Positions 4,414 through 17,871 of a stretch of 64,000 bases of DNA are shown here, one piece after another. The notes under the pieces were generated by a model, which had not been told where the DNA came from, did no database searches, and saw only the letters and a list, made by a program, of their open reading frames with translations. Positions within the stretch are counted from its first letter, which is position 1, and each line of letters opens with the position of its first letter. Source of the stretch: Cryobacterium sp. HLT2-28. GTDB lineage: Bacteria; Actinomycetota; Actinomycetes; Actinomycetales; Microbacteriaceae. A program made the translations under genes and the position numbers. The DNA is taken from the NCBI RefSeq assembly GCF_004402495.1, contig NZ_SOFH01000018.1:1-64000 (forward strand), written 5' to 3'.

Positions 4414-5505
4414 TCAGTCCTCCGGCCACCGGGCTCGCAGGTACTGCGGCGGCCAGTAGTCCAGGCTGACCCCGAGCTCGTGCGCGGCGCGAAGCGGGAA
4501 GTGCGGATCTCGCAGCAGCTCCCGGCCCAGCATGATCGCGTCGGCCTGGCCGGACGCGACGATCTGCTCGGCCTGCGCCGGGGTGGTGATCAGTCCGACC
4601 GCGCTGACCGGGACATCCGCCTCGGTCTTCACGTGCTGGGCCAGCGGAACCTGGTAGCCGGGCCCGAGCGGGATGCTCACCCCGGTGACGTTGCCGCCGG
4701 AGGAGATGTCGAAGAGGTCCGCCCCGGCCGCGGCCGCCCAGCCGGCGACCGTGGCGGTGTCGTCCTCATTCCAGCCGCCCGGCGCGTAGTCGGTGGCGGA
4801 GAAGCGCACGAACAAGGGATGACCGGGGCCGATCGCGTCGCGGACGGCCCTCACCACGGCGAGCAGCAACCGGGCGCGGTTCTCCAGCGAGCCGCCGTAC
4901 TCGTCGGTGCGCCGGTTGCTCAGCGGGGAGAGGAACTGGTGCAGAAGGTAGCCGTGGGCCGCATGGATTTCGACCAGGTCGAAGCCCGCGCCGATCGCGC
5001 GAGCGGCGGCCGCAGCGAAGTCGTCGACGATGTCCCGGATGCCGGCGGCGTCGAGCGCGACGGGAGGGTCATAGCCGGGGAACGGGACCGCCGACGCCGA
5101 CACGGTCGGCCAGCCGCCGGCATCCGCGGGCACGGTGCCGTGCTCGTCATGTCCCCAGGCCGGCCAGGTCGAGGCCTTGCGTCCCGCGTGCGCGAGCTGG
5201 ATGCCGGCCGCGGCGCCCTGCGAATGGATGAAGTCCACGATCCGCGCCCACGCCGCGGCCTGGGCGTCGTTCCAGATCCCGGTGTCCGCGTCGGTGATCC
5301 GGCCGTCGGGGCTGACCGCGCTCGCCTCGGCGACGACGAGGCCCGCGCCGCCCGCCGCCAGCTGGCCCAGGTGCATGAGGTGCCAGTCCCGGGGAACCCC
5401 GTCCTTCGCGAGGATCGAGTACTGGCACATCGGGGCCGCCCAGACCCGATTGCGAAACGTGACGCCGCGCAGAGTGAGCGGTTCGAACAGTGCGGCAGTG
5501 GCCAC
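4414..5505 (-). CDS. NADH:flavin oxidoreductase, YqjM-like old yellow enzyme
   Basis: 363 aa, a typical length for YqjM/NamA ene-reductases. FMN-dependent TIM-barrel enzyme that reduces activated C=C bonds with NAD(P)H. YqjM-class residues are present: Cys27 and Tyr29 in APMCQYS, the substrate-binding pair His181/His184 in EIHAAHGY, and DEYGGSLENR. Start is GTG 5505. It converges with the CNNM pair (5 bp between stops) and is divergent from nnrD. The physiological substrate cannot be read from the sequence. Confidence 0.9.
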   Translation of the reverse strand: MATAALFEPLTLRGVTFRNRVWAAPMCQYSILAKDGVPRDWHLMHLGQLAAGGAGLVVAEASAVSPDGRITDADTGIWNDAQAAAWARIVDFIHSQGAAAGIQLAHAGRKASTWPAWGHDEHGTVPADAGGWPTVSASAVPFPGYDPPVALDAAGIRDIVDDFAAAAARAIGAGFDLVEIHAAHGYLLHQFLSPLSNRRTDEYGGSLENRARLLLAVVRAVRDAIGPGHPLFVRFSATDYAPGGWNEDDTATVAGWAAAAGADLFDISSGGNVTGVSIPLGPGYQVPLAQHVKTEADVPVSAVGLITTPAQAEQIVASGQADAIMLGRELLRDPHFPLRAAHELGVSLDYWPPQYLRARWPED

Positions 5506-5566
5506 GGGGTCCCCCAGTATCGGTGCGGCCGCCCGATCTGACGGCCCGGATCTGTCCGAAACAACC

Positions 5567-5572
5567 TATCGT
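5567..5572 (+). promoter_or_regulatory. -10 box (TATCGT) for leaderless nnrD
   Basis: TATCGT lies exactly 6 nt before the nnrD ATG in the short divergent spacer, with no Shine-Dalgarno between. The geometry fits transcription starting at the start codon. Confidence 0.4.
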
Positions 5573-5578
5573 GAGTGC

Positions 5579-6457
5579 ATGGGCGAACCGCTGGACTGGC
5601 TGGAATGGGACGAGCGGCACGCGCGGGCCTGGATCGATGTTCCCCAGCCGGTCGACGACAAGTACAGCCGCGGCGTCCTCGGCGTGCGCACCGGGTCGAA
5701 GCAGTACCCGGGCGCCGCGGTGCTCGGGGTCGAGGCTGCCGCGCGCACCGGCGTGGGCATGGTGCGCTACCTGGGGCCGCGCCGGGCGACGAACCTCGTG
5801 CTCCAGCGCCGGCCGGAGGTCGTCACCGTTCCCGGCCGGGTGCAGGCGTGGCTGCTCGGTTCCGGCATGGATGCCGCCGCCCGCGACGACACGACCGCCA
5901 CCGCCCTGGTCGAGGCCCTCGCGGCCGGGCTGCCGACGGTGTGCGACGCCGGCGTGCTCGACCTGGTCGCGCACACCACCGGCCCCACCGTGGTCACCCC
6001 GCACTTCCGGGAACTGGCGGGGCTGCTCAGCCGGCGCGGAAAGCCGGTGACCGCGGCGGAGATCGCCGCCGCACCGGGGGAGTGGGCCGGCCGTGCCGCG
6101 ACCGACCTCGGCGTCACGGTGCTGCTCAAGGGCGCCGTCACCTTCGTCGCCTCGCCGGCCGGTGCCCGCCTCCGCGTCACCGGGGCGCCGGCCTGGCTGG
6201 CGACGGCCGGTTCAGGGGACGTGCTGGCCGGCATCCTCGGCGCACTGCTGGCCACGCACTCCGCCGCCATCGACACGGATGCCGACGCCCTCGTCGCCCT
6301 CGCCGCGACCGCGGCCCTGGTGCACGCGCTCGCCGCCGGTCGAGCGTCGGAGGGTGGTCCGATCACCGCCCTCGACGTGGCCGAGGCCGTCCCCGCCACG
6401 ATCGCGGCCCTCCTGGCGCCGACCTCCGGCGGCCGGCGCGCGGCCGCGCCCGCCTGA
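5579..6457 (+). CDS. nnrD: ADP-dependent NAD(P)H-hydrate dehydratase
   Basis: 292 aa, YjeF C-terminal/carbohydrate-kinase fold. It repairs hydrated NAD(P)H (NADHX/NADPHX) using ADP. Seen: GVRTGSKQYPGAAVLGVEAAARTG (residues 35-58, nucleotide-binding start), TVVTPHFRELAGLL, and the anion-hole motif AGSGDVLAGI with catalytic Asp214. Only the dehydratase domain is present; the epimerase domain often fused to it is absent here and must be elsewhere if present. The start ATG 5579 begins just before the conserved N-terminus; an upstream in-frame extension would run through the divergent promoter and overlap the flavoprotein gene. Confidence 0.9.
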   Translation: MGEPLDWLEWDERHARAWIDVPQPVDDKYSRGVLGVRTGSKQYPGAAVLGVEAAARTGVGMVRYLGPRRATNLVLQRRPEVVTVPGRVQAWLLGSGMDAAARDDTTATALVEALAAGLPTVCDAGVLDLVAHTTGPTVVTPHFRELAGLLSRRGKPVTAAEIAAAPGEWAGRAATDLGVTVLLKGAVTFVASPAGARLRVTGAPAWLATAGSGDVLAGILGALLATHSAAIDTDADALVALAATAALVHALAAGRASEGGPITALDVAEAVPATIAALLAPTSGGRRAAAPA

Positions 6458-6493
6458 CCGGGGAGCGAACATCACCCGTCGGGGTACTCCGTT

Positions 6494-7786
6494 GTGGGAA
6501 AGTTGACCGTGCCTGATCCCGCCGCCCGCGAGCCGATGCCCGAGCCGATGCCTGCGCCGACGGCGGAACGGCGAGGGGTGACGCTCGCCGCCCGGCTCGG
6601 GGCCGCGCCGCGGGCGATGCTCTGGGCCGGTTTCGTCCTCGTGCACCTCGCGCTGGCGCTGCTCTGCGTTCTCGCTCCGGGCTGGCCGCTCGGTGACGTG
6701 CAGAAGGTCTACTTCGGTTGGGCCACCGACGCCGCGGCCGGCACCTCGGTCGTCGGCATCGACACCGGCTTCGTCTATCCGATCCTCGCGGTCGTGCCGA
6801 TCTTCGCCTCCCTCGCATTCGGTCCGGCGCTCTACGTGGCAACCTGGCTGGGCGTCGTGACCCTGCTCGACGGGGTCGCGTTCGCGTTCCTGCTCGGGCG
6901 CGGCCGGGACCGGCGCGCGCTCCGGGCCGCCGGCTGGTGGCTGGCGTTCCTGGTGCTGCTCGGCCCGATCGCCCTGGCCCGGATCGACGCCGTCACCGCC
7001 TCGCTGGTGATCGTCGCTGTGCTCTGGGTGCGCGCGCGCCCGCTCGCGGCCACGGTTCTGCTCACCGTTTCCACCTGGGTGAAGATCTGGCCGATTGCCC
7101 TGATCGCGGCGCTCGTGGTGGTGTCGAGACGGCGTCGGCAGGTGGCCCTGGCGATGGCCGGCACCAGCGCGGTCATCGTCGGCGCCGCGCTGAGCCTCGG
7201 CAGCGGCTCGAACGTGTTCAGCTTCGTGACCGAGCAGACCAACCGGGGAATCCAGATCGAATCCCCGGTCGGCGGGATCTGGATGTGGCAGGCGGCCCTG
7301 CGCCTGCCGGGAACCTTCGTCTACTACGACCGGCAGATCCTGACCTACCAGGTCATCGGCCCGGGCACCGACGTCGCGATCGCCCTGATGAACCCCCTGC
7401 TCGTGATCGCGGTGGCCGGCGTGCTCCTACTCGGCTGGCAGGCCGCTCGCCGAGGAGCGGCCTGGGACCGGCTGTACCCTTCGTTGGTGCTGGCGCTGGT
7501 GCTGACCCTGATCCTGGCGAACAAGGTCGGGTCGCCGCAGTTCGTCTGCTGGCTCGCCGCGCCGGTCATCCTCGGGCTGCTCGTGCGGGGACGCGCGTGG
7601 CGGCTGCCGGCCGTGCTCGTCCTGGGCATCGCCGGGCTCACCCAGCTCGTCTACCCTTATCTGTACGGGGGGCTGCTCGTCGCCGATCCGGTCATGGTGC
7701 TGGTGCTGACGGCGCGCAACCTGCTCGAGGTCGTGCTGCTCGGCTGGGCGCTGAGGCAGGTGCGGCGCTCGGCCGCCCCGCACTGA
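6494..7786 (+). CDS. Polytopic membrane glycosyltransferase, GT87/DUF2029 family
   Basis: 430 aa. Multi-spanning membrane protein with a short cytoplasmic N-terminus rich in Pro/Met and about ten hydrophobic segments. Conserved GT87-like features are seen: TGFVYPILAVVPIFASLAFGP, an Arg-Asp pair in LARIDAVTASL, STWVKIWPIALI, and the late ILANKVGSPQFVCWLAAP. Related proteins use polyprenyl-phosphate sugars on the outer face of the membrane (for example PimE mannosyltransferases); the exact acceptor is unknown. The start is either GTG 6494 (given) or GTG 6509, which has GGGAAAG just upstream. Followed at 27 bp by the thiamine-binding protein gene. Confidence 0.8.
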   Translation: MGKLTVPDPAAREPMPEPMPAPTAERRGVTLAARLGAAPRAMLWAGFVLVHLALALLCVLAPGWPLGDVQKVYFGWATDAAAGTSVVGIDTGFVYPILAVVPIFASLAFGPALYVATWLGVVTLLDGVAFAFLLGRGRDRRALRAAGWWLAFLVLLGPIALARIDAVTASLVIVAVLWVRARPLAATVLLTVSTWVKIWPIALIAALVVVSRRRRQVALAMAGTSAVIVGAALSLGSGSNVFSFVTEQTNRGIQIESPVGGIWMWQAALRLPGTFVYYDRQILTYQVIGPGTDVAIALMNPLLVIAVAGVLLLGWQAARRGAAWDRLYPSLVLALVLTLILANKVGSPQFVCWLAAPVILGLLVRGRAWRLPAVLVLGIAGLTQLVYPYLYGGLLVADPVMVLVLTARNLLEVVLLGWALRQVRRSAAPH

Positions 7787-7813
7787 CCCGCTCCACAATC
7801 ACAAGGAGATCCC

Positions 7814-8149
7814 ATGCTCGTCGCATTCTCGGTCGCACCATCCGGCGGCCACGACCCGGACGGCTCGGTGCACAACGCCGTCGCCGCAGCGGTGCGGGTC
7901 GTGCGCGACTCCGGCCTGCCCAACCACACCGACTCGATGTTCACGACCATCGAGGGCGACTGGGACGAGGTGTTCGCCGTGGTCAAGGCGGCGACCGAGG
8001 CCGTCGGCGCCTGGGGGCCGCGGGTGTCCCTGGTGCTGAAGGCGGACATCCGGCCGGGCCGGACCGGCGAGCTGACGAGCAAGGTCGAGCGGCTCGAGGC
8101 GGCACTGGAAGCGGCCGCCGCGCCGCCCGACGGCGCGACCGGCCGGTAG
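7814..8149 (+). CDS. Thiamine-binding protein, MTH1187/YqgV family (DUF77)
   Basis: 111 aa. Small ferredoxin-like-fold protein of the DUF77 family (FSVAPSGG near the N-terminus; [19 protein letters not shown]-type core at about 38-56; [12 protein letters not shown]). Members bind thiamine and form tetramers; they are thought to buffer or sense cytosolic thiamine. Excellent Shine-Dalgarno AAGGAGA 6 nt before ATG 7814. It may be co-transcribed with the upstream glycosyltransferase. The C-terminus is a short Ala/Pro-rich tail. Confidence 0.85.
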
Positions 8150-8202
8150 CCTGGTTCGGCGGGCTGCACGTGCCCTCCGGCACCGAGGCGATCACCGTCG
8201 TC

Positions 8203-8226
8203 GGATGGCCGGATGGCCGGATGGCC
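8203..8226 (+). repeat. Three 8-bp tandem repeats GGATGGCC
   Basis: GGATGGCC occurs three times in a row at 8203, 8211 and 8219, in the spacer between the thiamine-binding protein gene and the convergent response regulator. Confidence 0.9.
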
Positions 8227-8249
8227 GGACGCCGTGATCGGCCCGGCCG

Positions 8250-8287
8250 GCCAGTGACCGCAGGCAGGGCCAGTGACCGCAGGCAGG
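8250..8287 (+). repeat. Two perfect 19-bp tandem repeats next to the response regulator stop
   Basis: GCCAGTGACCGCAGGCAGG is repeated exactly at 8250-8268 and 8269-8287, ending 1 bp before the stop codon of the response regulator. The spacer (8150-8288) holds nothing else that I can recognise. Confidence 0.9.
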
Positions 8288-8288
8288 T

Positions 8289-8975
8289 CTAGTCGGTCTG
8301 CAGGAGGATGCCGTCGTGGATGGCGCGCTTGCGCAGGGCCACCTTCGTGCCGACGTCGAACCCCGCGAGGCGGTACTTCTCGCGGATCCGCTTGAGGTAG
8401 GACTTCGCGGTCTCCTCGGAGATACCGAGCTGGTGGGCCACGGCCTTGACCGGCTCGCCCGCGCCGTACAGGGCCATCACCCGGCGCTCCTGGGCGCTCA
8501 GCCGAGGGGAGCCGCCGCTGGTGCCGGCGCTCAGCGCCTCGTCCAGCTCGGCCGAGATGTAGGACTCACCGTCGTAGGCCGCGCGGATCGCCTCGACGAT
8601 CATGTTCGCTTCCTCGCTCTTGACGAGGTAGCCGAGCGCGCCGGCCGCCAGCGCCTCGCGCACGAGGCCGGGCTCGGAATAGGTGCTCATCAGCACCGTC
8701 TTGACGCCGGCGGTCTTGAGGGTGGAGATCTTCAGGGAGACGGGGATGTTGTCCTTGAGGTCGAGGTCGAGGAGCACGACGTCGACGGGGAACTCGGGGT
8801 GGGTCAGCAGCTCCGGCCAGGTCGTGACGGCGGCGACCATGTTGATGTCGTCCGCAGCCCCCCTGATCCACTCGGTCAGGGCACCGAGGAGCATCCGATG
8901 ATCGTCGACCAGGGCCAACCGAATGGGATGCTCCCTGCTCGGCACTGCGATATTCGTCATTGTCATGTTCGTCAT
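8289..8975 (-). CDS. NarL/FixJ-family response regulator
   Basis: 228 aa. Receiver domain with the acidic pair Asp24-Asp25, phosphoacceptor Asp70 (VVLLDLDLKD), Ser/Thr in LMSTYS and Lys in YLVKSEE, followed by a LuxR-type helix-turn-helix (LSAQERRVMALYGAGEPVKAVA... ISEETAKSYLKRIREKY). Start ATG 8975 has AGGAGG 5 nt upstream. It is the last gene of the kinase locus, but an intrinsic terminator lies between it and the preceding gene, so its level may depend on read-through. The partner is most likely the histidine kinase at 10325-11494. Confidence 0.93.
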   Translation of the reverse strand: MTNMTMTNIAVPSREHPIRLALVDDHRMLLGALTEWIRGAADDINMVAAVTTWPELLTHPEFPVDVVLLDLDLKDNIPVSLKISTLKTAGVKTVLMSTYSEPGLVREALAAGALGYLVKSEEANMIVEAIRAAYDGESYISAELDEALSAGTSGGSPRLSAQERRVMALYGAGEPVKAVAHQLGISEETAKSYLKRIREKYRLAGFDVGTKVALRKRAIHDGILLQTD

Positions 8976-9005
8976 TGCTGCCTCCTACTGCCTTTGCACC
9001 CGACC

Positions 9006-9030
9006 AAAAAGCCCGACGGCTCTCCGTCGC
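9006..9030 (-). terminator. Intrinsic terminator between degenerate kinase and response regulator
   Basis: On the minus strand CGACGG-AGAG-CCGTCG (stem 6, loop 4) is followed by GGC and five T residues. It lies 6 bp after the stop of the degenerate-kinase gene and about 30 nt before the response regulator ATG. Confidence 0.7.
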
Positions 9031-9035
9031 AGACC

Positions 9036-10328
9036 TCAAGCATCCGCGGGATTGTCGATACTGCACTCGATCTCCACCCGGAGACTTCCGTCCCGGGTCG
9101 AATCGATGTGAGGACCGACTACTCGGATAGCTTGCCACGTCTCGGGGTCCACACGCCGCCGGGGAACACCCGTGGTGGTCAATTCGATTGGAAATCGTAA
9201 CTTCTGGCGGGCTCGCACGCCGTGGGTGGGCCTGATCGGGCCCAGTGAGAGCGACACTGCGGCCTCGGCGCGAGTCGTGTCGCTGATCAGGAGCCAAATC
9301 GTGCGGAGCAACGCGTCGCGCTGGGCCGGGTCGAGCAGCCCGGCCAGGCCCGCGGGATCGTGCAGGTTCACGGAGGGGCCGAGGAACTCCGACTCGGTGA
9401 TCGCATGGTGGAGCCAGGTCTCACGCCGGCCCTGGATCAGGTGCAGGCGCAGCTGGGTGGCGAGGGTGGAGGCCGTCGTCGACTTGTCGGCGCCGAGCGG
9501 AAGAGTGGTCCGGCCCTGGGCGACGTCGTCGAGCAGGGTTTCCGCGTCGAGGTCGATCCGCGCGAGTTCCTCGGAGGCGAGCATGCCCACCGCGAATTGC
9601 GGTTGGGAGACCGTGCTCTGCACGAGCACCAGGTCGAGTTCACGCTGGGCCATCCGGCGGAATGAGCGCACGATCGCGACTCCGAGCAGCGGAGGCATGA
9701 TGGCCAGGACTATCGCCAGCAGTTCCGGTGCGAGGGTGAACGGGTCGGGGCGGGACTCGGTGACGGCGCCGACGAACAGGACACCGGCCAGCACGACGGC
9801 CGAGGTGACGACGTCGCGGCCGCGACGCACCGTGACGAGGGCGATCAGCAGCGAACCGACCGCCGCGGCTGCCGTCGGGTACACCTCGGACCCGCCCGGT
9901 CCTCGAGAACCGGCCAGATCGAGCACGACCACGACGCTGCCGCTGGCCAGGGCCGCGGCGAACAGCCAGTCGGGCATCCGCGCCGACAGTTGTTGCACGG
10001 TGACCAGCGCGAGCGCCGTCGTCGCCATCAGCAGTGTCCAGGCCGCCAGGCTCGGCAGGGGGTTCGGGTAGTCGAACCATTGGATCATGAAGCGCCAGAA
10101 CAGGAACAGTGCGATGAACCCGCCGCTGAAGGACAGCCCGATGCCCAGGTGGCGGCCACCCAGGCCGCTCTGGTTCGCGCGGGTCGTCTTAACGGTGCGC
10201 TCCGGCCGGCGGAAGGTGCGCCGGCGATCCTGGCGTTCCTGGACCTCCTTGAGGCGGAGGTCCTTCCGGCTCGCCCCGGCGGCCCGGAGGTCGCCCAGCG
10301 GGACGTCGACGAGGTCGGGACCGATCAC
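9036..10328 (-). CDS. Unrecognised membrane protein resembling a degenerate sensor kinase
   Basis: 430 aa. I do not recognise a named family. Seen: a basic N-terminus, about six to seven hydrophobic segments between residues 60 and 225 (GGFIALFLFWRFMIQWF onward), then a cytoplasmic part. That part has a helical stretch (SEELARIDLDAETLLDDVAQ) and a region DPAQRDALLRTIWLLISDTTRAE that lines up with the N-box of HATPase domains but lacks the key Asn and Gly motifs, and ends GSLRVEIECSI like a HATPase C-terminus. No phosphorylatable His box is obvious. It begins with ATGA overlapping the stop of the histidine kinase, so the two are translationally coupled. Inference: a pseudokinase partner or regulator of the kinase. 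Confidence 0.6.
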   Translation of the reverse strand: MIGPDLVDVPLGDLRAAGASRKDLRLKEVQERQDRRRTFRRPERTVKTTRANQSGLGGRHLGIGLSFSGGFIALFLFWRFMIQWFDYPNPLPSLAAWTLLMATTALALVTVQQLSARMPDWLFAAALASGSVVVVLDLAGSRGPGGSEVYPTAAAAVGSLLIALVTVRRGRDVVTSAVVLAGVLFVGAVTESRPDPFTLAPELLAIVLAIMPPLLGVAIVRSFRRMAQRELDLVLVQSTVSQPQFAVGMLASEELARIDLDAETLLDDVAQGRTTLPLGADKSTTASTLATQLRLHLIQGRRETWLHHAITESEFLGPSVNLHDPAGLAGLLDPAQRDALLRTIWLLISDTTRAEAAVSLSLGPIRPTHGVRARQKLRFPIELTTTGVPRRRVDPETWQAIRVVGPHIDSTRDGSLRVEIECSIDNPADA

Positions 10329-11494
10329 TTCGGCACCTCCAACACCACGGTCGTGCCGGAACCGGGGGAGGAGAACAGCCTGGCGTTGCCGCCGACATCT
10401 CGCAGCCGGGCCACGACGGATTCGGCGAAGCCGAGTCGTTCGGCGCTCACTCCGAGCAGATCGAAGCCGACCCCGGCGTCGGTGACCATGGCGCGCACGG
10501 TGGTGTCGTCATCCGAGATCGTGACGTCGGCCCGGTCGACCCCGGCATGGCGGCGCACGTTCTCCAGGCACTCGCCCAGCGCGAGCAGGAACGAGTCGAG
10601 GACATCGCTGGGCAGCAGCACCTGCCCGCTGCCGTGCCAGTCCACCTCCAGTCCCATTCGGCCGAAGCGCTGCTTCACCGATTCCAGGGTGCTGCCCAGG
10701 GTCGACTCCGTGGCCGGCTCGAGGGTGTACACGCCGGAGCGACGCGGCGTCGGCAGGCCGCCCAGGCGCAACTGCCGCAACAGCCGGGCATCGTCCCCGG
10801 CCTGCTGGCGGAGCGCGGCGGGGCTGACGCCGACACCGGAGTGGGCGAGCAGGGTGAGGGTGGCCAGCACGGTGTCGTGCAGGAGCCTGGCGTCCTGGCG
10901 GCGCTGGGCCTCCAGTTCGCTGGCGTGCCGTTCGGCCAGGTGGGCCCGGCCGATCGCTGCGATGCGCTGCATCACCCGGGGCACGCTTTGGGCAACCCAC
11001 CAGCCCGCGAGGGCAATCGCGAACCAGCCGCAGATCGTGATGGCCAGCGGCACGATCGCCCCGGCGGAGGTGATCGTGGTGGCGAGGACGCTGGCCAGGA
11101 TGGCCGCGAACGACGCGAACAGCAGGATCAGCCGGCGGGTGCTGACGACCAGCACGAGCGCGACGGCGCTCGTCGCGGTCGCCGCGACGGTGCCGATGAC
11201 GGTCTCCTCGACCAGGTTCAAGCCGGGCGGCCCCTGGCCGGAGAAGCCGATCAGGAGGATGACTCCGATTCCGGAGAGCACGATCAGGATGACCCAGCGT
11301 ATCCGGCCGGACCGGCCGAGCAGGTACTGGCCGGCGACCATGAGGAGGAGCACCGGCAGGCAGCGGCCGAGCAGGTCCAGGCTGAGGCCGCCCGGGACGA
11401 GCATCACGACCAGCACCGCCACCGAACCGGCCAGGCCGGTCAGCCGGGCGGCTCTCCGCAGGAGGCGGTCGCGCTCTTTGAAGATTCGTTGCAT
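10325..11494 (-). CDS. Membrane sensor histidine kinase (NarX/DesK-like)
   Basis: 389 aa. About five to six transmembrane segments in residues 20-170 with no large extracellular domain, so it probably senses the membrane or an intramembrane signal. A coiled linker (RAHLAERHASELEAQRRQ) leads to the HisKA_3-type box DARLLHDTVLATL with His206. The HATPase domain has N-box LLALGECLENVRRHAG, G1 VTDAGVGFD, G2-like LGFAESVVARLRDVGG and the end SSPGSGTTVVLEVPK. Such kinases pair with NarL-type regulators, as found two genes downstream. First gene after a 99-bp spacer from the DUF4389 gene pair; its stop overlaps the next start (ATGA). Confidence 0.9.
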   Translation of the reverse strand: MQRIFKERDRLLRRAARLTGLAGSVAVLVVMLVPGGLSLDLLGRCLPVLLLMVAGQYLLGRSGRIRWVILIVLSGIGVILLIGFSGQGPPGLNLVEETVIGTVAATATSAVALVLVVSTRRLILLFASFAAILASVLATTITSAGAIVPLAITICGWFAIALAGWWVAQSVPRVMQRIAAIGRAHLAERHASELEAQRRQDARLLHDTVLATLTLLAHSGVGVSPAALRQQAGDDARLLRQLRLGGLPTPRRSGVYTLEPATESTLGSTLESVKQRFGRMGLEVDWHGSGQVLLPSDVLDSFLLALGECLENVRRHAGVDRADVTISDDDTTVRAMVTDAGVGFDLLGVSAERLGFAESVVARLRDVGGNARLFSSPGSGTTVVLEVPK

Positions 11495-11593
11495 GTCGCC
11501 TGGATTACTCCTCGTAATGCCCTATGAAGCACCATATCCGGCTCGAACCCGTTTTCTCGCGATCCGGGAGACACTGGTTCCTGCGATTGTGGG

Positions 11594-12274
11594 TCATCGG
11601 GCCGACTCGACCTGCTCCGGGTCGGTCCTGGTGCGGTCCGCGGGCTGGGAACCGAGCAGCCACACCAGCACGAGCCCGGACACCGCGGCCATGCTCGCCG
11701 CCATCAGGATCCCGGCGAGCACGCCGATCGCCACGATCAGCGGCAGGGGCTGGCCCGGCTGCCACAACGGCGTCGCGACCGCGAAGAAGACGCCGAGGCC
11801 CACGCACCAGGCCGCGGCGCTGCCGAGGATCCACCAGCCGCTGCGCGCGAGGTGGCGGCGCAGTTCGAGCCACTGCGCGAAGCCGATCGACGCCAACAGG
11901 AGCGTCCCGGCGACGGCCGCGGCGCCGACGACCAGCCCGGTCGGCCAGGCCGACCAGACGGCGGCCCACGTGCTCGGCAACAGACCGATGAACCAGGCGA
12001 ACGCGGCGGCGACGGCCGTTCCGCCGACCCAGGCGGCGCGGGACAGGGCCGGGATCGCGTCGCGGAGCACGTGCGCCTGCGCCCAGCCGAGCACGGCGCC
12101 CTCGACGGCGCCGGCGGCGACCAGGGCCGGGACATTGGCCGCGGGCAGGTCGCTCGTGACGAACTCGGCCAGCGTCGGGGCCAGGAATCCAACGCTCTCG
12201 CCCAGGCCGACCCAGAGCAGCCAACGACGGAACAACGGTGGGCGGGTGAGGGCCGGGTGCCGATGGCCGTTCAT
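11594..12274 (-). CDS. Membrane protein of unknown function, coupled to the DUF4389 gene
   Basis: 226 aa. About six hydrophobic segments over the whole length (LLWVGLGESVGFLAP, GAVEGAVLGWAQAHVL, AAAFAWFIGLL and so on), ending in a short polar tail. GESVGF and a conserved-looking GWAQ suggest a family seen widely in actinobacteria, but I cannot assign a function. Start ATG 12274 shares its A with the TGA stop of the DUF4389 gene (TGATG), a sign of coupled translation. It is followed after 99 bp by the histidine kinase on the same strand. Confidence 0.75.
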   Translation of the reverse strand: MNGHRHPALTRPPLFRRWLLWVGLGESVGFLAPTLAEFVTSDLPAANVPALVAAGAVEGAVLGWAQAHVLRDAIPALSRAAWVGGTAVAAAFAWFIGLLPSTWAAVWSAWPTGLVVGAAAVAGTLLLASIGFAQWLELRRHLARSGWWILGSAAAWCVGLGVFFAVATPLWQPGQPLPLIVAIGVLAGILMAASMAAVSGLVLVWLLGSQPADRTRTDPEQVESAR

Positions 12275-13791
12275 CAGGGCCGGGCCGCGGGGAGCGGCGG
12301 GTCGTCGGGGCCCTGCTCGAGTCGGCGGGCCGCGGGGAGCGGCGGGTCGTCGGGGCCCTGCTCGAGTCGGAAGGGCGGGTAGTCGTCCCGCATGAGCGCC
12401 GTGTACACCATGACCCGGAAGACCCAGCGGTCCAGGCCGAGGATCAGGTCGAACAGGGTGCGTCGCAGCCGACCGGTGAAGAGCAGGATCAGCCCGGAGA
12501 GCAGCACGAGCAGCCCGATCAGGGACGGCCCGGTGACGGCAGCGGTTCCGGCGCCCGCAGGCCAGTCCGCCGGTTGGGTGCGCCAGGACCAGGCGCTGCC
12601 GGTGATGACCGCCACGATCAGGAGGTGCGGCAACGCCAGCAGCCACCACTTGACGAGGACCAGTCCGTTGGACAGCCGCACGGGATAGTCGACCTGGAGA
12701 TCGGCCGGGTAGTCCGTCGCGGCGAGCGTGAACGGGGGGTACCGGTCGGTTCCGAGGGCCGAGTAGGAGTAGAACGCCACCCGCCAGCTCCAGCGCAGGA
12801 CCCCGACGTTGAAGGTGAACAGCGACGCGGGGTACCGTCCGGTGAACAGGATCGCGAAGCCGGCCACGACGGTGGTGACGAAGAAGGCGCACCAGAGGAA
12901 GAACAGCACGATCACGTGCGGAATGACCAGGAACCACTTCACCAGCCACAGCCACCGCGACAGCACCGGATCGGGTTCCCCGGTCAGCCGGGCCGGGTAG
13001 GTGCGCCATTCGTCGACCGGGTGGACGGCCGGCGGCATCGGGCCGGGCGGCGCGGGCCCAGACGCGAACGCCGGCGGTGCGGGCGGCGGGGTGGCCAATG
13101 GGGTGCCGGCCGGCGCAGCACCGGGCGGCACCGGGGCACCCCGGCCGAGCCCGATGGCCCCGAGCACGACCAGCGAGATCCCGAGCAGCAGCAGCAGGAT
13201 GCCGGCGATCACCAGCCCGATCGCGAGCGGCCCGAGCAGGCCCAACCGGGCGCCGGCGCGCAGCTGCACGGCCACGCGGGGGCTCGCATCCGTGTTCATC
13301 ACGACGACGGCCCAGGTGCCGGGCCGCACGTCCCAGACCACCTGTTGCGTTCCCGGCCCGGAGGCCGACACCGTCCACCAGCCCTGGTCGCCGGGGAGGG
13401 CGGGCCGTGCCGTGCCGGGGACATCGCGGTACTCCGTGCGGAACGGGGAGAAGCTCACGTCCACGAGTTCGGTGTGGTGCACCGCCGTGAGGTAGCGGTC
13501 CACCTCGGCCTGCGGTGCGATGCCGATGAACACGTCGCCGCCGGTGCTCGTGGCCTCCAGGCGGATGCTGGCGACACCGGCCGGGATCCCGGACGTGCCG
13601 GCGACGTCCAGTCTCGGCGAGGTGAGCGCGTAGGAGTCGGCGGAGAATGAGGCGGCCGGCGCGCTGAAGAAACCGTTGTCCGCCTGCTGTGAACTCGCCA
13701 CCGTGGCAGCAACGCCCCCGGTCAGCATGCCCAATCCGATCAGCGAGAACACCGTTCCGAGCACCAGCATGACGACGTAGGCGGGTTTCAT
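12274..13791 (-). CDS. DUF4389-repeat membrane protein
   Basis: 505 aa. Order seen: N-terminal membrane anchor (5-35), an extracytoplasmic region to about 185, a transmembrane helix, a Pro/Ala linker (PPGAAPAGTPLATPPPAPPA), then two DUF4389 units with the pattern R-Y-P-x-F...W-R-V-x-x-Y...D-x-Y-P-P-F (RYPASLFTF...DRYPPFTL and the C-terminal RDDYPPFRL). Function unknown; the domain is membrane-associated. I chose ATG 13791 because GAGAGG lies about 9 nt before it; the in-frame ATG at 13800 would sit directly on that site. The last 31 residues contain an exact 15-residue duplication. Confidence 0.85.
   Translation of the reverse strand: MKPAYVVMLVLGTVFSLIGLGMLTGGVAATVASSQQADNGFFSAPAASFSADSYALTSPRLDVAGTSGIPAGVASIRLEATSTGGDVFIGIAPQAEVDRYLTAVHHTELVDVSFSPFRTEYRDVPGTARPALPGDQGWWTVSASGPGTQQVVWDVRPGTWAVVVMNTDASPRVAVQLRAGARLGLLGPLAIGLVIAGILLLLLGISLVVLGAIGLGRGAPVPPGAAPAGTPLATPPPAPPAFASGPAPPGPMPPAVHPVDEWRTYPARLTGEPDPVLSRWLWLVKWFLVIPHVIVLFFLWCAFFVTTVVAGFAILFTGRYPASLFTFNVGVLRWSWRVAFYSYSALGTDRYPPFTLAATDYPADLQVDYPVRLSNGLVLVKWWLLALPHLLIVAVITGSAWSWRTQPADWPAGAGTAAVTGPSLIGLLVLLSGLILLFTGRLRRTLFDLILGLDRWVFRVMVYTALMRDDYPPFRLEQGPDDPPLPAARRLEQGPDDPPLPAARP
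12281..12370 (+). repeat. Perfect 45-bp tandem duplication in the DUF4389 gene 3' end
   Basis: 12281-12325 and 12326-12370 are identical 45-bp units. They are in frame and give the peptide RLEQGPDDPPLPAAR twice at the C-terminus. Zero divergence points to a recent event. Confidence 0.95.
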
Positions 13792-13854
13792 GGCGGCCAT
13801 CCTCTCGGGGGAATCACCCGATTTTCAACCTTTCCCTGAACGCCGCGGCTGTCA

Positions 13855-13887
13855 ACCCCTCGGCCGCCGTCACGGCGGCCGAGGGGT
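13855..13887 (-). terminator. Strong hairpin terminator after metX
   Basis: A perfect inverted repeat with 16-bp arms (ACCCCTCGGCCGCCGT / ACGGCGGCCGAGGGGT) around a single central C overlaps the metX stop codon. There is no long T-tract, as is usual in high-GC actinobacteria. It separates metX from the DUF4389 operon promoter region. Confidence 0.75.
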
Positions 13888-15089
13888 CAGTCGAGGAGCC
13901 GGCCCAGCTGGGCGCCGATCGCCGCGGTCTCGATCAGGAACCCGTCGTGGCCGTACCCCGACTCGAGCACGACAGGGTCGGCGCCGTCGATGTTGTGCCG
14001 AAGGTGCTCGGCGATCCGCCGCTGGCCCTCCACGGGGAACAGCCGGTCGCTGTCGATGCCGACCACCACGGTGCGGGCCGTCACCCGGCTGAGGGCTGCG
14101 GGGACACCGCCGCGACCGCGGCCGACGTCGTGCGAGTCCATGGCCTGCACGAGAGTGACGTAGCTGTTGGCGTCGAACCGGCGGGTGAACTTGTTGCCGT
14201 GGAAGTCGAGGTAGGACTCGACCGCGAACCGGCCGCCGGCCCCCAGCGGGCTGATCTCACTCTGCCAGCCGCGGTCGAACCTGAGGTTGAGCTCGGCGGG
14301 GCTGCGGTAGTTGAGCAGTGCCATCCGGCGGGCGAGGGCCAGGCCGCGGGTGGGTCCGTCGCCGTCGTCGGCGTCGTAGTAGTCCCCCGACCGGAACAGG
14401 GGGTCGGAGCGGATCGCCTCGATCTGCACCGAGTTCAAGGCGATCTGGTCGGCCGTCGTCACCGGCGGCGCGGCGAGGATGGCGAGGCGCGCCACGCGCT
14501 CGGGGGCCCCGATCGCCCACTCGAGGGCGTGCATCCCGCCCATCGAACCGCCGATGACGGCGGCCCAGCGGTCGATGCCGAGGCGGTCGCTGAAGGCACG
14601 CTGCGCGGCCACCTGGTCGCGGATGGTGAGGTACGGGAAACGGGTGCCCCATTCGCTGCCGTCGGGCGCCAGGGACGCGGGGCCGGTGCTGCCCTGGCAG
14701 CCGCCCAGCATGTTCGGCGCCACCACGAACCAGCGGTCGGTGTCGATGGCGAGCCCCGGGCCGACGATGCCGCCCCACCAGCCTGCCGTGACGTGGCCGT
14801 CGCCGGCGGCGCCGACCAGATGGCTGTCGCCGGTGAGCGCGTGCAGCACGAGCACGGCGTTGTGGCCGGAGGGGGAGAGCTCGCCCCAGGTCTCGAAGGC
14901 GAGGCGCACGGCGCCCAGGCTGCCGCCGGCCTCGAAACGGAGCGGGCCGACGTCGAGGAAGCGGCGGGAGCCGACGGGGTCACCGTCGCGCCAGGCGCCG
15001 GTCGCCGGGGGCTTGCCGAGGACCGAGCGCGCCTGGGCTTCAGTGACGAAGCTGGACGGGACCGTGTCTGCCGAGAATTGCCATTCCAT
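13887..15089 (-). CDS. metX: Homoserine O-acetyltransferase
   Basis: 400 aa, alpha/beta-hydrolase fold. It makes O-acetylhomoserine from homoserine and acetyl-CoA, the first committed step of methionine synthesis by direct sulfhydrylation. Seen: LVLHALTGDSHLVG (oxyanion region), MLGGCQGSTGP, nucleophile Ser182 in IGGSMGGMHALEW, the acid in GIDSDRLFP (Asp346/Asp348) and His381 in GYGHDGF. Start ATG 15089 with GGGGGCG just upstream. It lies 195 bp downstream of metY on the same strand, with a long inverted repeat in between, so both steps of the pathway are together. Confidence 0.95.
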   Translation of the reverse strand: MEWQFSADTVPSSFVTEAQARSVLGKPPATGAWRDGDPVGSRRFLDVGPLRFEAGGSLGAVRLAFETWGELSPSGHNAVLVLHALTGDSHLVGAAGDGHVTAGWWGGIVGPGLAIDTDRWFVVAPNMLGGCQGSTGPASLAPDGSEWGTRFPYLTIRDQVAAQRAFSDRLGIDRWAAVIGGSMGGMHALEWAIGAPERVARLAILAAPPVTTADQIALNSVQIEAIRSDPLFRSGDYYDADDGDGPTRGLALARRMALLNYRSPAELNLRFDRGWQSEISPLGAGGRFAVESYLDFHGNKFTRRFDANSYVTLVQAMDSHDVGRGRGGVPAALSRVTARTVVVGIDSDRLFPVEGQRRIAEHLRHNIDGADPVVLESGYGHDGFLIETAAIGAQLGRLLD

Positions 15090-15189
15090 ACGCCCCCATT
15101 CTGGCGAACCTCGAGGACCTCCGTCTGATTGTTACGCGCGAACTCGCGCGCAGCATCCGATGTCCCGCACCTTTCTTGGCCCGAGCCTC

Positions 15190-15274
15190 GTCGAATTCGA
15201 CGGAGATTTTGCCGAATTGACCCGGAAAACCGTGTTTCAGCCTCGGATCACGGAAAATCTCCGTCGAATTCGAC
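15190..15274 (-). repeat. Long inverted repeat between metY and metX
   Basis: The 21-bp arms 15190-15210 and 15254-15274 are perfect reverse complements (core TCGAATTCGACGGAGATTTT) around a 43-bp loop; each arm also contains the palindrome TCGAATTCGA. The spacer is otherwise empty. It could be a mobile REP/MITE-like element or an RNA hairpin affecting metX expression. Confidence 0.85.
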
Positions 15275-15283
15275 ACCCAGAGG

Positions 15284-16615
15284 CTAGGCGTTGGCGCGGG
15301 ATGCCACCACGACCGCGCGCGCCGCGGCCAGGCCGAGCTCGAGGTCGGCCTTGAGGTCGACGATGTTCTCGATGCCGACGGAGAGGCGCACGAGGCCGGG
15401 TGTGACTCCGGCCGTGAGCTGCTGCTCGGGCGTGAGCTGTGCGTGGGTGGTCGAGGCCGGGTGGATCACGAGCGAGCGCACGTCGCCGATGTTGGCCAGG
15501 TGGCTGAACAGCTCGAGGTTGTCGACCAGGGCGCGGCCGGCATCCACCCCGCCCTTGAGCTCGAACGAGAGCACCGCGCCGACGCCCTGCGGGGCGTACT
15601 TGTTGGCGGCGGCGTACCAGGGGCTCGTCGGCAGGCCGGCGTAGTTGACCGAGGCGATGTCCGGGTGGTTCTCGAGCCACTCGGCGATCTCCTGGGCGTT
15701 CTGCACGTGACGTTCGATCCGCAGGCTCAGGGTTTCGATGCCCTGGATGAGCTGCCAGGCGCTCGCCGGGGCGATCGCGGCACCCAGGTCGCGGAGCAGC
15801 TGCACCCGGGCCTTGATGATGTACGCGATGGGGTCGCCGACGGCGCCGGTGTAGCTGACCCCGTGGTAGGACGGGTCGGGTTCGGTCAGGCCGGGGAACT
15901 TCGCGACGTTCTTGGACCATTCGAAGCTGCCGCCGTCGACGATGACGCCGCCGATGACCGCGCCGTGGCCGCCGAGGAACTTGGTGGCCGAGTGGATGAC
16001 GATGTCGGCGCCGTGCTCGAACGGACGGATCAGGTAGGGGGTGGCGATCGTGTTGTCGACGATCAGCGGAACGCCTGCCTCATGGGCGACGCCGGCGACG
16101 AGGGAGATGTCGAGCACGTTGATCTTCGGGTTGCCGATGGTCTCCGCGAAGAAGAGCTTGGTGTTCGGGCGCACGGCGCGGGCCCACTCGGCCGCGTCGT
16201 CCTGGTTCTCGACGAACGTGGTCTCGATGCCGAGCTTGGCGAGCGTGTACTTGAAGAGGTTGTAGGTGCCGCCGTAGATCGAGCTGGACGAGACGATGTG
16301 GTCGCCGGCCTCGGCGATGTTCAGCACGGCGAAGGTCGACGCGGCCTGGCCGGACGCGAGCAGCAGCGCCGCGGTTCCGCGTTCGAGGGCGGCGACGCGC
16401 TCCTCGACGACGGCCTGGGTCGGGTTCATGATGCGGGTGTAGATGTTGCCGAATTCGGCCAGCGCGAACAGGTTCTGCGCGTGCTGCGCGTTGTTGAACA
16501 CATAGGACGTGGTCTGGTAGATCGGGGTGTTGCGGGCGTTCGTGGTGGGGTCGGGCCGGGCGCCGGAGTGAACCTGCTTGGTTTCGAACTTCCAGGCCTG
16601 TGCGTTGTCGCTCAT
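15284..16615 (-). CDS. metY: O-acetylhomoserine aminocarboxypropyltransferase (sulfhydrylase)
   Basis: 443 aa, the usual length for MetY. PLP enzyme of the Cys/Met metabolism family that makes homocysteine from O-acetylhomoserine and sulfide. Seen: [32 protein letters not shown], the PLP lysine in [15 protein letters not shown], and long family-specific insert [25 protein letters not shown]. Start ATG 16615 is preceded by a short leader with AGGGAGA. Its own promoter is visible upstream; metX follows on the same strand. Confidence 0.95.
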
Positions 16616-16672
16616 GAGGTGGTCTCCCTGATAATCCTCGACGAGCGTGGACCGTCCATCGCTCTGGGTGCG

Positions 16673-16702
16673 AGTTTAGGCATCCGCCCGGAGGGGTGGC
16701 AA
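16673..16702 (-). promoter_or_regulatory. Sigma-70-type promoter for metY
   Basis: On the minus strand TTGCCA and TAAACT are separated by 18 bp, about 58 nt upstream of the metY ATG. The resulting leader of about 50 nt is too short for a SAM riboswitch. Confidence 0.55.
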
Positions 16703-16755
16703 CGACCCGTGAAACACGGCGTCACACGCGGGGTGCCCCCATCGAACCGGCCGGA

Positions 16756-17871
16756 TCAGGGCTGTTCGGCGGGCGGCGGATCCATCGGCGGCAGCACGAT
16801 CGTCCCGGTGTGCGTCGACTCGTGCTTGCGGAACAGCCAGCGTGCCCGCGGCTCGATGATCGGCCGGAAGAGCCGCTTCACGATCGGGAGGGACAGCAGC
16901 ACGCTGATCCCCACGCTGAGCAGCAGCAGCGCCGGCAGCACCCAGGCCGGCTGCGCGCCGCCGAGCACCCCCGATTCACGCAGCGGGAAGAGCAGGAAGC
17001 TGTGCAGCAGGTAGATGTACATCGTCGCCGACCCCAGCGCGGTGAACCAGGTGGTGCTGCGCGGCACGAGCAGGAGGAACGCCATGATCAGGGCGAAGGC
17101 GAGGAGCATCAGGCCCAGGCGGATGCCGCCGGCCCAGAGCTGGTCGTAGCCGAACGTCGGGTAGGCCTCGCTGTAGAGCAGGAACTGGCGGATCTGCAGG
17201 GTGCGGAGGGCGTCGATGTTCAGGGCGATCACGCCCAGCAACGCCGAGAACAAGGTCAGGGCGGCGACCCGCCAGCGCCACACCTCGCCGACGCCGAGCT
17301 CGAGCCAGCGGGCGGTGAGCTTCCACTGGCGCAGCTTCCAGCCGAAGACGAAGAAGGGCAGCAGGCCCAGGGTGCGGGAGAGGGCGAAGGTGCCGTCGAT
17401 CGAGGTGATGTAGCCGGCCCCGATCGAGATCAGGATGCCGACCAGCAGCGGATAGCGCAGCAGCACCATGAACGGCAGCATGAGGCGCCAGACCAGCAGG
17501 GCGATCAGGAACCACAGCGTCCACGAGGCGCTGGAGTAGTCAAGGTTGAACTCGCCGCCCAGCAGCCACCGCACGAGAGTCCAGATCGTCTCGAACACCA
17601 CGTACGGGAAGACCACGTCGGTGATCAGCCGGTGCAGCTGCCGCGTGCCCGGGGGACCCGAGCGGGCGAAGTACCCGCTGACGGCGACGAAGAGCGGCAC
17701 GTGGAAGGCGTAGATGAACAGGTACGCCTCGTAGGCGACGTCCGACCCGTGGATGAGTTTGAGGATCGCGTGCCCCATCACCATGAGGGTGATGGCGATC
17801 CAGCGGGCGTTGTCCCAGAGGGGAACCCGCCGCTTCTTGACATGGGGCCTGCCGGCGACTCGTGCACTCAT
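16756..17871 (-). CDS. Acyltransferase-3 family membrane protein
   Basis: 371 aa. Integral membrane acyltransferase (OafA/NodX-like fold) with about ten hydrophobic segments. Family features: RVPLWDNARWIAITLMVMGHAI near the N-terminus, with the catalytic-type His in MGH, and FHVPLFVAVSGYFAR. Such enzymes acetylate or succinylate cell-surface sugars or lipids; the target is unknown. I chose ATG 17871 because GGGAGA lies about 9 nt upstream; the ATG at 17880 would sit directly on it. Divergent from the following SDR gene with only about 30 bp between. Confidence 0.85.
   Translation of the reverse strand: MSARVAGRPHVKKRRVPLWDNARWIAITLMVMGHAILKLIHGSDVAYEAYLFIYAFHVPLFVAVSGYFARSGPPGTRQLHRLITDVVFPYVVFETIWTLVRWLLGGEFNLDYSSASWTLWFLIALLVWRLMLPFMVLLRYPLLVGILISIGAGYITSIDGTFALSRTLGLLPFFVFGWKLRQWKLTARWLELGVGEVWRWRVAALTLFSALLGVIALNIDALRTLQIRQFLLYSEAYPTFGYDQLWAGGIRLGLMLLAFALIMAFLLLVPRSTTWFTALGSATMYIYLLHSFLLFPLRESGVLGGAQPAWVLPALLLLSVGISVLLSLPIVKRLFRPIIEPRARWLFRKHESTHTGTIVLPPMDPPPAEQP

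Follow-up and report, generated by a model that had tools for sequence, protein, structure and literature searches.

What does a membrane protein do that is encoded between a sensor histidine kinase and its response regulator? This question is raised by a locus of Cryobacterium sp. HLT2-28 (Microbacteriaceae), which lies in a 64,000-nucleotide stretch of contig NZ_SOFH01000018.1 (positions 1 to 64,000, forward strand), referred to here as the window; the host genome (G000) comprises 3.7 Mb in 32 contigs. According to our analysis, the histidine kinase (HK), a dedicated pseudo-histidine-kinase encoded in the middle and a NarL-type regulator probably make up a three-component sensor, in which the two kinase-related proteins would form an obligate complex and the dead subunit would gate the live one. 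The three genes, for a HK, a membrane protein of 430 amino acids and a NarL regulator, are present just where the first-pass annotation of this DNA had placed them:

10325..11494, minus strand: membrane HK, 389 amino acids, with intact catalytic boxes and a match to PF02518
10325..10328, minus strand: GTGA overlap, the start codon of the middle gene lying over the HK stop, as read from the sequence
9036..10328, minus strand: middle protein, 430 amino acids, putative pseudo-histidine-kinase with six membrane segments, a hairpin resembling the dimerization and histidine phosphotransfer (DHp) domain at about 243-312 and a HATPase-fold domain at about 303-427
8289..8975, minus strand: NarL/LuxR-type response regulator, 228 amino acids, Response_reg and GerE, with conserved receiver Asp70

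The overlap of 4 bases had been read as ATGA and has to be corrected to GTGA, the middle gene starting with GTG. The next in-frame ATG, GTG or TTG is found only at residue 81, within the first membrane stretch. The first 40 residues appear to be poorly conserved, since many relatives align to the middle protein only from about residue 37-51 onward. A gap of 60 bp separates the stop of the middle gene from the start of the regulator. The middle gene is 97% identical in Cryobacterium sp. MP_M3 and 96% in C. algoritolerans, nearest named relatives of the host genome.

Judged by their sequences, the HK and the regulator look ordinary. The HK matches PF02518 (HATPase_c) with 29.6 bits (cut-off 26.4) and carries the H-box LLHDTVLATL, the N-box ECLENVRRHA and the G-box DAGVGFD. 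HisKA_3 was not among its Pfam matches up to E 10, in a search whose filters drop weak matches; we take its H-box (LHDTVLATL) to resemble that family. An alignment of 113 rows (the window and 112 loci including paralogues) has His206 in 110 (two gaps, one Asn), the N-box Asn in 111 and the G-box residues in 112-113; position D+4 of the H-box is Ala in 108. The regulator matches Response_reg and GerE, and its receiver Asp70 is present in all 112 aligned rows. With intact HK boxes, a receiver Asp and a LuxR-type helix-turn-helix, the two have the features of a NarL-type pair. A second NarL-type regulator, 39-42% identical to that of the window, is encoded just upstream of the HK, at about 2.4-4.7 kb of the locus, in ten loci from Clavibacter, Naasia, Amnibacterium, Planctomonas and an uncultured relative (L076, L078-L085, L099).

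The middle protein matched no Pfam family at E 10 and no NCBIfam family at E 1, and its family found no match in the PDB by sequence. Its hydropathy shows six hydrophobic segments, with only short loops between the membrane segments of both this protein and the HK. Its structure was predicted with AlphaFold2, for the whole protein (50 sequences; predicted local distance difference test, pLDDT, 71; predicted template modelling score, pTM, 0.45) and for residues 223-430 alone (pLDDT 68, pTM 0.57), and the order of elements was identical. Past the membrane segments, the whole-protein model has long helices up to residue 270 and a second helix at 280-312, followed by a strand, a helix, two strands, a helix and two strands, which is the order of a catalytic and ATP-binding (CA) domain; the last helix follows on the third strand without an ATP lid.

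Structure comparisons point to the same fold. Residues 223-430 found 14 matches in the PDB at E <= 0.001 with Foldseek, all of them kinase-type and including LvrB, phytochrome, DosS, NtrB, RetS, AgrC, DesK and CpxA, while the whole protein reached this level with none (best NtrB and DosS, about 0.002). With VIA, the best match of the whole protein was HprS (Z 9.9, root-mean-square deviation (rmsd) 2.5, 108 residues; 49 of the 50 rows listed were kinase-type), and residues 223-430 gave a best Z of 9.8 (rmsd 2.9, 109 residues; 50 of 50). These counts of kinase-type rows take in CheA, ETR1, phytochromes and ChpT, and the matches span mainly the CA part. The first-pass annotation had proposed a cytoplasmic part with DHp-like and HATPase-like regions but without Asn and Gly motifs, and both models as well as their matches to histidine kinases agree with it: the predicted structure combines the DHp hairpin and the HATPase fold expected of a pseudo-histidine-kinase.

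The residues of an active HK appear to be missing from this fold, as neither the phospho-His nor the N-box Asn nor DxGxG could be recognized. At the position equivalent to the phospho-His, which was set by eye against the HK (by profile for proteins from outside the family), Leu occupies 96 of 111 rows and His none. In the window protein, the helix at 334-349 that corresponds to the N-box is without Asn, there is no DxGxG box, and Pfam gave no HATPase_c match at E 10. A DHp hairpin with a dead CA domain might also belong to a phosphotransferase that relays phosphate as ChpT or Spo0B do, and ChpT, the HK-like phosphotransferase 4qpj and Spo0B are indeed among the structure matches. However, the first DHp-like helix has no conserved His, and His308 near the end of the second helix, present in 101 of 111 rows, is replaced in the other ten (Ile 5, Asn 2, Leu 2, Thr 1). 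Moreover, the HK and the regulator look complete without a relay, and the trio contains no second receiver gene. We therefore consider a phosphotransferase very improbable.

The middle gene is inherited together with the HK. Among 150 Microbacteriaceae genomes (cut-offs E <= 1e-3 for the middle protein, E <= 1e-70 for the regulator and E <= 1e-30 for the HK), the middle gene was found in 106, the regulator in 106 and the HK in 105. One middle-gene match (G100, E 4.4e-4) looks like chance, leaving 105 convincing ones, in exactly those genomes that hold the HK. None of the 150 had a HK without a middle gene, and the gene lists differ only at G100 and at G113, where the regulator lies at a contig end. 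Elsewhere among these genomes, the identity of the best match ranges over 73-89% for the regulator, 31-64% for the middle protein and, once two shorter pieces of G009 are set aside, 43-68% for the HK. Each of the three proteins is matched in all 101 loci of an initial set (L001 being the window) that was drawn from two partly overlapping sources; the HK match is split or partial in L044, L054 and L098 and the middle match is split in L070. The three-gene design that had been annotated as uncommon is thus upheld, but it is not restricted to this locus. Many of the listed genomes without a convincing middle gene are small; others are full-sized, for example those of genus g85. In this genus, nine of the nine genomes listed had no middle-gene match, and three have related HKs that read HDSVLAAL (L273, L274, L293).

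Against eight Cryobacterium loci, the ratio of nonsynonymous to synonymous substitution rates (dN/dS) was 0.07-0.22 for the middle gene and 0.08-0.18 for the HK. This resemblance indicates more than a chance open reading frame (ORF), and the substitution pattern shows the middle gene to be under purifying selection. A gene without catalytic motifs might be regarded as a decaying HK duplicate without a role, yet its low dN/dS, its presence in all 105 sampled family genomes that bear the HK and its fusions elsewhere (see below) contradict decay, and we give this explanation practically no credence.

Further copies in the family indicate to which of its neighbours the middle protein belongs. In the second copies L112-L117, HK and middle gene again adjoin. 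Four of them (L112, L113, L115, L117) have the regulator gene in divergent orientation upstream of the HK, with HK and middle gene still adjacent, which suggests that the middle protein belongs with the HK and not with the regulator. Still more divergent pairs were found in L118, L119, L121, L155, L156 and L158-L160, of which the partners in L159 and L121 score weakly. One of these lies in the host genome itself (contig C27, L156, 3395-6527), where the HK frame of a second HK and middle-like pair is split in two and its H-box reads LNQDTTLNEL; in the genus mate G078 (L155) the HK is in one frame. The HKs of L118 and L155 read LLNDTTVAQL at the H-box and keep the N-box Asn and DAGRGF, with a pseudokinase alongside.

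Relatives outside the Microbacteriaceae place the middle protein in a wider family of actinobacterial proteins; for the members scanned, neither Pfam nor NCBIfam recognizes this family. The searches of the class scored few candidates per genome, and genome counts are therefore lower bounds. With the window-family profile, matches were found in 9 of 345 class genomes, eight of them in the own family and the ninth (G459) short and weak. The wider family surfaced only via the HK profile (A3), which matched at least 168 of 296 class genomes at E <= 1e-15. At the HK loci of other families, where genes were called by a simple script and not by a gene finder, unrecognized membrane proteins adjoin the HK in families f23, f26 and f41, and family f24 has single open frames of about 770-950 amino acids whose N-terminal half is the HK. 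Three such fused proteins scanned with Pfam contain one HATPase each, in the first half. No such neighbour was found downstream of the HK in L161, L164, L168, L170, L173 and L174. Plasmids gave no match to P0001 or to the C-terminal half of the fused protein L162.

A profile of the separate proteins and fused C-terminal halves from outside the family (A5), trimmed so that no HK half was included, matched at least 40 of 296 class genomes at E <= 1e-6, in 79 places; at least four of these genomes (G204, G300, G430, G438) are counted solely via a HK match. The best 60 of the 79 places comprise 41 fusions of HK and pseudokinase, nine adjacent pairs, three contig ends and seven without a HK above the cut-off, one of which (L256, 35 bits) has HK boxes in the same frame by eye. 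Eight of the nine adjacent pairs have a regulator directly downstream, which is the order of the window (f23, f26, f41); the ninth, L230, belongs to f24. These fusions strengthen the apparent tie of the middle protein to the kinase.

The same profile connects these proteins with histidine kinases. A5 matches genuine HKs in four genomes (G438, E 2.4e-19; G430, 1.8e-17; G300, 9.1e-17; G204, 2.7e-13) and the HK halves of fused proteins at E 3.8e-14 to 6e-7. In profile comparisons, the window family matched the divergent middle proteins of its own taxonomic family with probability 99.8 (E 8e-29) and the proteins from outside with probability 96.9 (E 1.3e-10, 278 columns). With the cytoplasmic parts alone, the outside proteins matched the DHp-CA part of the HK (probability 84.8, E 6.6e-6) and the divergent middle proteins (70, E 4e-5), and the latter matched the window family (98.7, E 4e-16); controls with unrelated halves gave 0.06-0.19, and the divergent middle proteins against the HK 0.05. 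The first alignments of the window family with the HK leave out L118-L122, and later ones include those found by BLAST. By sequence, the outside proteins retrieved three weak rows from the PDB, the sensor kinase 7zp0 at E 0.064 and two fimbrial constructs (E 0.0016 and 0.08) that were taken for chance. The HK ancestry of the outside pseudokinases is thus well supported by sequence comparison, and it would extend to the window protein via intermediates and fold. An origin by HK duplication is most likely, because A5 also matches genuine HKs.

Several results weigh against this interpretation and the sensor that we propose. The models are only middling (pLDDT 71 and 68, pTM 0.45 and 0.57), and a Z of about 10 is moderately above the 7-8 that is VIA's typical best for models without a clear match. 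The direct profile comparison of the window family with the cytoplasmic part of the HK was not significant (probability 0.15), the cytoplasmic parts of the outside proteins and the window family matched with just probability 16 (E 0.0016), and the membrane parts compared with that of the HK were not significant either (probability 3 for the outside proteins, 15 for the window family). The link of homology relies on the fold, on the intermediates and on the membrane part of the pseudokinases themselves, which gives the strongest match between the window family and the outside proteins (probability 94.8). In L118 and L155, the second pair of Cryobacterium, Asn replaces the phospho-His of the HK. 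Six of the 60 outside places are ORFs of 710-758 amino acids with a pseudokinase half and without a HK recognized by profile (L238, L239, L241, L242, L245, L257), and L238, the one that was read, keeps a His box (IHN) and has no CA domain. A fully active partner kinase is therefore not universal. Finally, association in the genome and fusion fall short of proving contact or control.

With these points taken into account, we posit that the middle protein descends from a HK and would have lost the phospho-His, N-box, G-boxes and ATP lid while keeping the membrane helices, the DHp-like hairpin and the CA fold. It would pair with the HK through membrane and DHp helices, as a hetero-dimer or in a higher complex, and would set the kinase state of the HK when something changes in or at the membrane; the chemistry of ATP, phospho-His and phospho-Asp would be left to the HK alone. 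That the two proteins sit in one complex is most likely, because they share DHp- and CA-like parts, their genes overlap and they are fused in some bacteria. Sensing within the membrane is a guess from the short loops between the membrane segments in both proteins. These loops, together with a profile match to the outside proteins that is strongest in the membrane part, would also suit a membrane sensor or inhibitor of the LiaF type, which acts through its membrane parts and has the HATPase-like end just as a scaffold. However, the cytoplasmic part is the better conserved (in the same 50 sequences, mean column identity is 70% there and 53% over the whole protein), and a mere scaffold would hardly require such conservation. 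A LiaF-type C-terminal domain was not found either, the middle protein having hit 0 families in Pfam (E 10) and 0 in NCBIfam (E 1). We regard this explanation as quite unlikely.

The H-box of the HK suggests another role, which would make the middle protein the phosphatase limb of the system. Gln at D+4 is usual in HisKA_3 kinases and is the residue to which the phosphatase function is ascribed. A HK without this Gln would work one way, and the pseudokinase would dephosphorylate the regulator or make the HK do so. At D+4, Gln or His occurs in 2 of 60 partnered HKs (both His) and in 37 of 46 HKs without a recognized partner, a comparison from which exact duplicate rows were removed, near-copies remaining, and in which L159 and L121 were counted manually as 'partnered' for their weak partners. 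The DHp-like helix of the window family moreover contains a conserved DxxxE (D259 in 110 and E263 in 108 of 111 rows), and a chrS-Q191A strain of Corynebacterium glutamicum is called phosphatase deficient in a passage of PMC9491836.

However, the association at D+4 is confounded by ancestry, as the partnered HKs form few clades. In a quick tree of 106 HKs the partnered label needs five changes, at least three of them on starred branches, and hence few origins or losses of partnering; a test of independent pairs was powerless (three pairs on starred branches, p = 1). A statistical tie between the loss of the phosphatase Gln and the partner was consequently dropped as a claim, since ancestry can explain it. 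Six HKs have Ala and yet no recognized partner (L161, L164, L168, L273, L274, L293), and no DxxxE was seen at the aligned place in the outside pseudokinases. We consider a phosphatase limb unlikely, and return to a pseudokinase that would gate the HK. Actinobacteria might possess a standing class of asymmetric sensor kinases, each an obligate complex of a catalytic and a dead subunit that are encoded as neighbours or in one polypeptide and share out chemistry and control between them; the live subunit would have lost the phosphatase Gln and the dead one would govern shut-off. We offer this as a tentative idea that is itself doubtful. If true, it would be a bacterial counterpart of the eukaryotic kinase-pseudokinase pairs, undescribed as a family.

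Control of a HK by a pseudokinase has precedents. Four papers describe DivL of Caulobacter as a naturally occurring pseudo-histidine-kinase with control over another, active kinase, CckA (PMC9430884, PMC4211667, PMC5361649, PMC9491836). As there, a pseudo-histidine-kinase would be paired with a separate active kinase here, the control being our proposal. DivL has a recognizable kinase core in which Tyr replaces the His and is not known to be encoded in one fixed operon with its kinase, whereas the middle protein is without His, N and G boxes and lid and the gene order, or fusion, is fixed. In Pseudomonas, a kinase-like protein, RetS, controls another, GacS, via hetero-oligomers, as one of these sources mentions (PMC9491836). 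Here, too, a kinase-like protein stands beside a kinase, and RetS is among its structure matches. RetS is a hybrid with receiver domains that is encoded apart from GacS, unlike the middle protein, in which the Pfam scan recognized no receiver domain. In the portion of the same source on C. glutamicum, an evolved ChrS pseudokinase promotes signalling via the paralogous kinase HrrS; it is a laboratory frameshift mutant, and in two-hybrid assays native ChrS, not the truncated form, pairs with HrrS (PMC9491836). This is likewise a pseudokinase from an actinobacterium, while our middle gene is natural and conserved.

Three components are also found in LiaF-LiaS-LiaR (VraT-VraS-VraR), described in parts of two papers as an accessory protein with a HK and a regulator (PMC3543457, PMC7191749). 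The locus of the window resembles it in having an accessory protein beside HK and regulator. To our knowledge LiaF is not a kinase fold, in contrast to the kinase-like fold predicted for the middle protein, which matched no Pfam family. The split kinase HK1-HK2-TcrA of Mycobacterium tuberculosis, where one protein has the CA part and the other the His, also places two kinase-related genes next to one regulator, unlike our trio, in which the HK holds all catalytic parts and the middle protein none. DesK-DesR is similar as a membrane HK with a NarL-type regulator, DesK being among the structure matches, and we know of no pseudokinase partner of it.

Among the matches listed from the open-licence literature, there was no description of a natural HK-pseudokinase pair that is fixed in an operon or fused. 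Control of a HK by a pseudokinase is known already (DivL, RetS, evolved ChrS), and it is the operon-fixed or fused pair that appears to be new. Few pseudo-histidine-kinases are known, and here a genetically fixed pair occurs in 105 of the 150 genomes sampled from this family and also in four others. Such a pair is clean material for studying by what means a dead subunit could set the state of a live kinase, and natural fusions would fix the stoichiometry of kinase and pseudokinase. The finding also points to a protein family left blank by Pfam and NCBIfam for the scanned members.

The surroundings of the trio are conserved as well, with one neighbour that we place outside the signalling unit:

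13887..15089, minus strand: metX-like gene, conserved upstream neighbour of the HK, sharing its strand in 68 of 71 loci (L031-L101)

From its sequence, and not by family search, we take this gene to encode a homoserine O-acetyltransferase; the names metX-like, metY-like and NAXD-like are likewise our presumption. In the window (5135-17600) and in L031-L101 the gene order is metY-like gene, metX-like gene, HK, middle gene and regulator, followed on the opposite strand by a gene for a thiamine-binding protein (PF01910; 69 of 71 loci), a membrane protein gene and a NAXD-like gene. These neighbours might suggest control of methionine or thiamine genes, for which synteny by itself is not evidence. 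A search for a regulator-binding motif upstream of the HK yielded enriched dyads, the best of them present in 19 of 47 sequences as against 7 in one shuffle; no motif is claimed, since the metX-like gene ends within several of the upstream stretches. A gene for a DUF4389 membrane protein also lies in the window (12274-13800), between the HK and the metX-like gene, and a relative of it is present in 21 of 71 loci.

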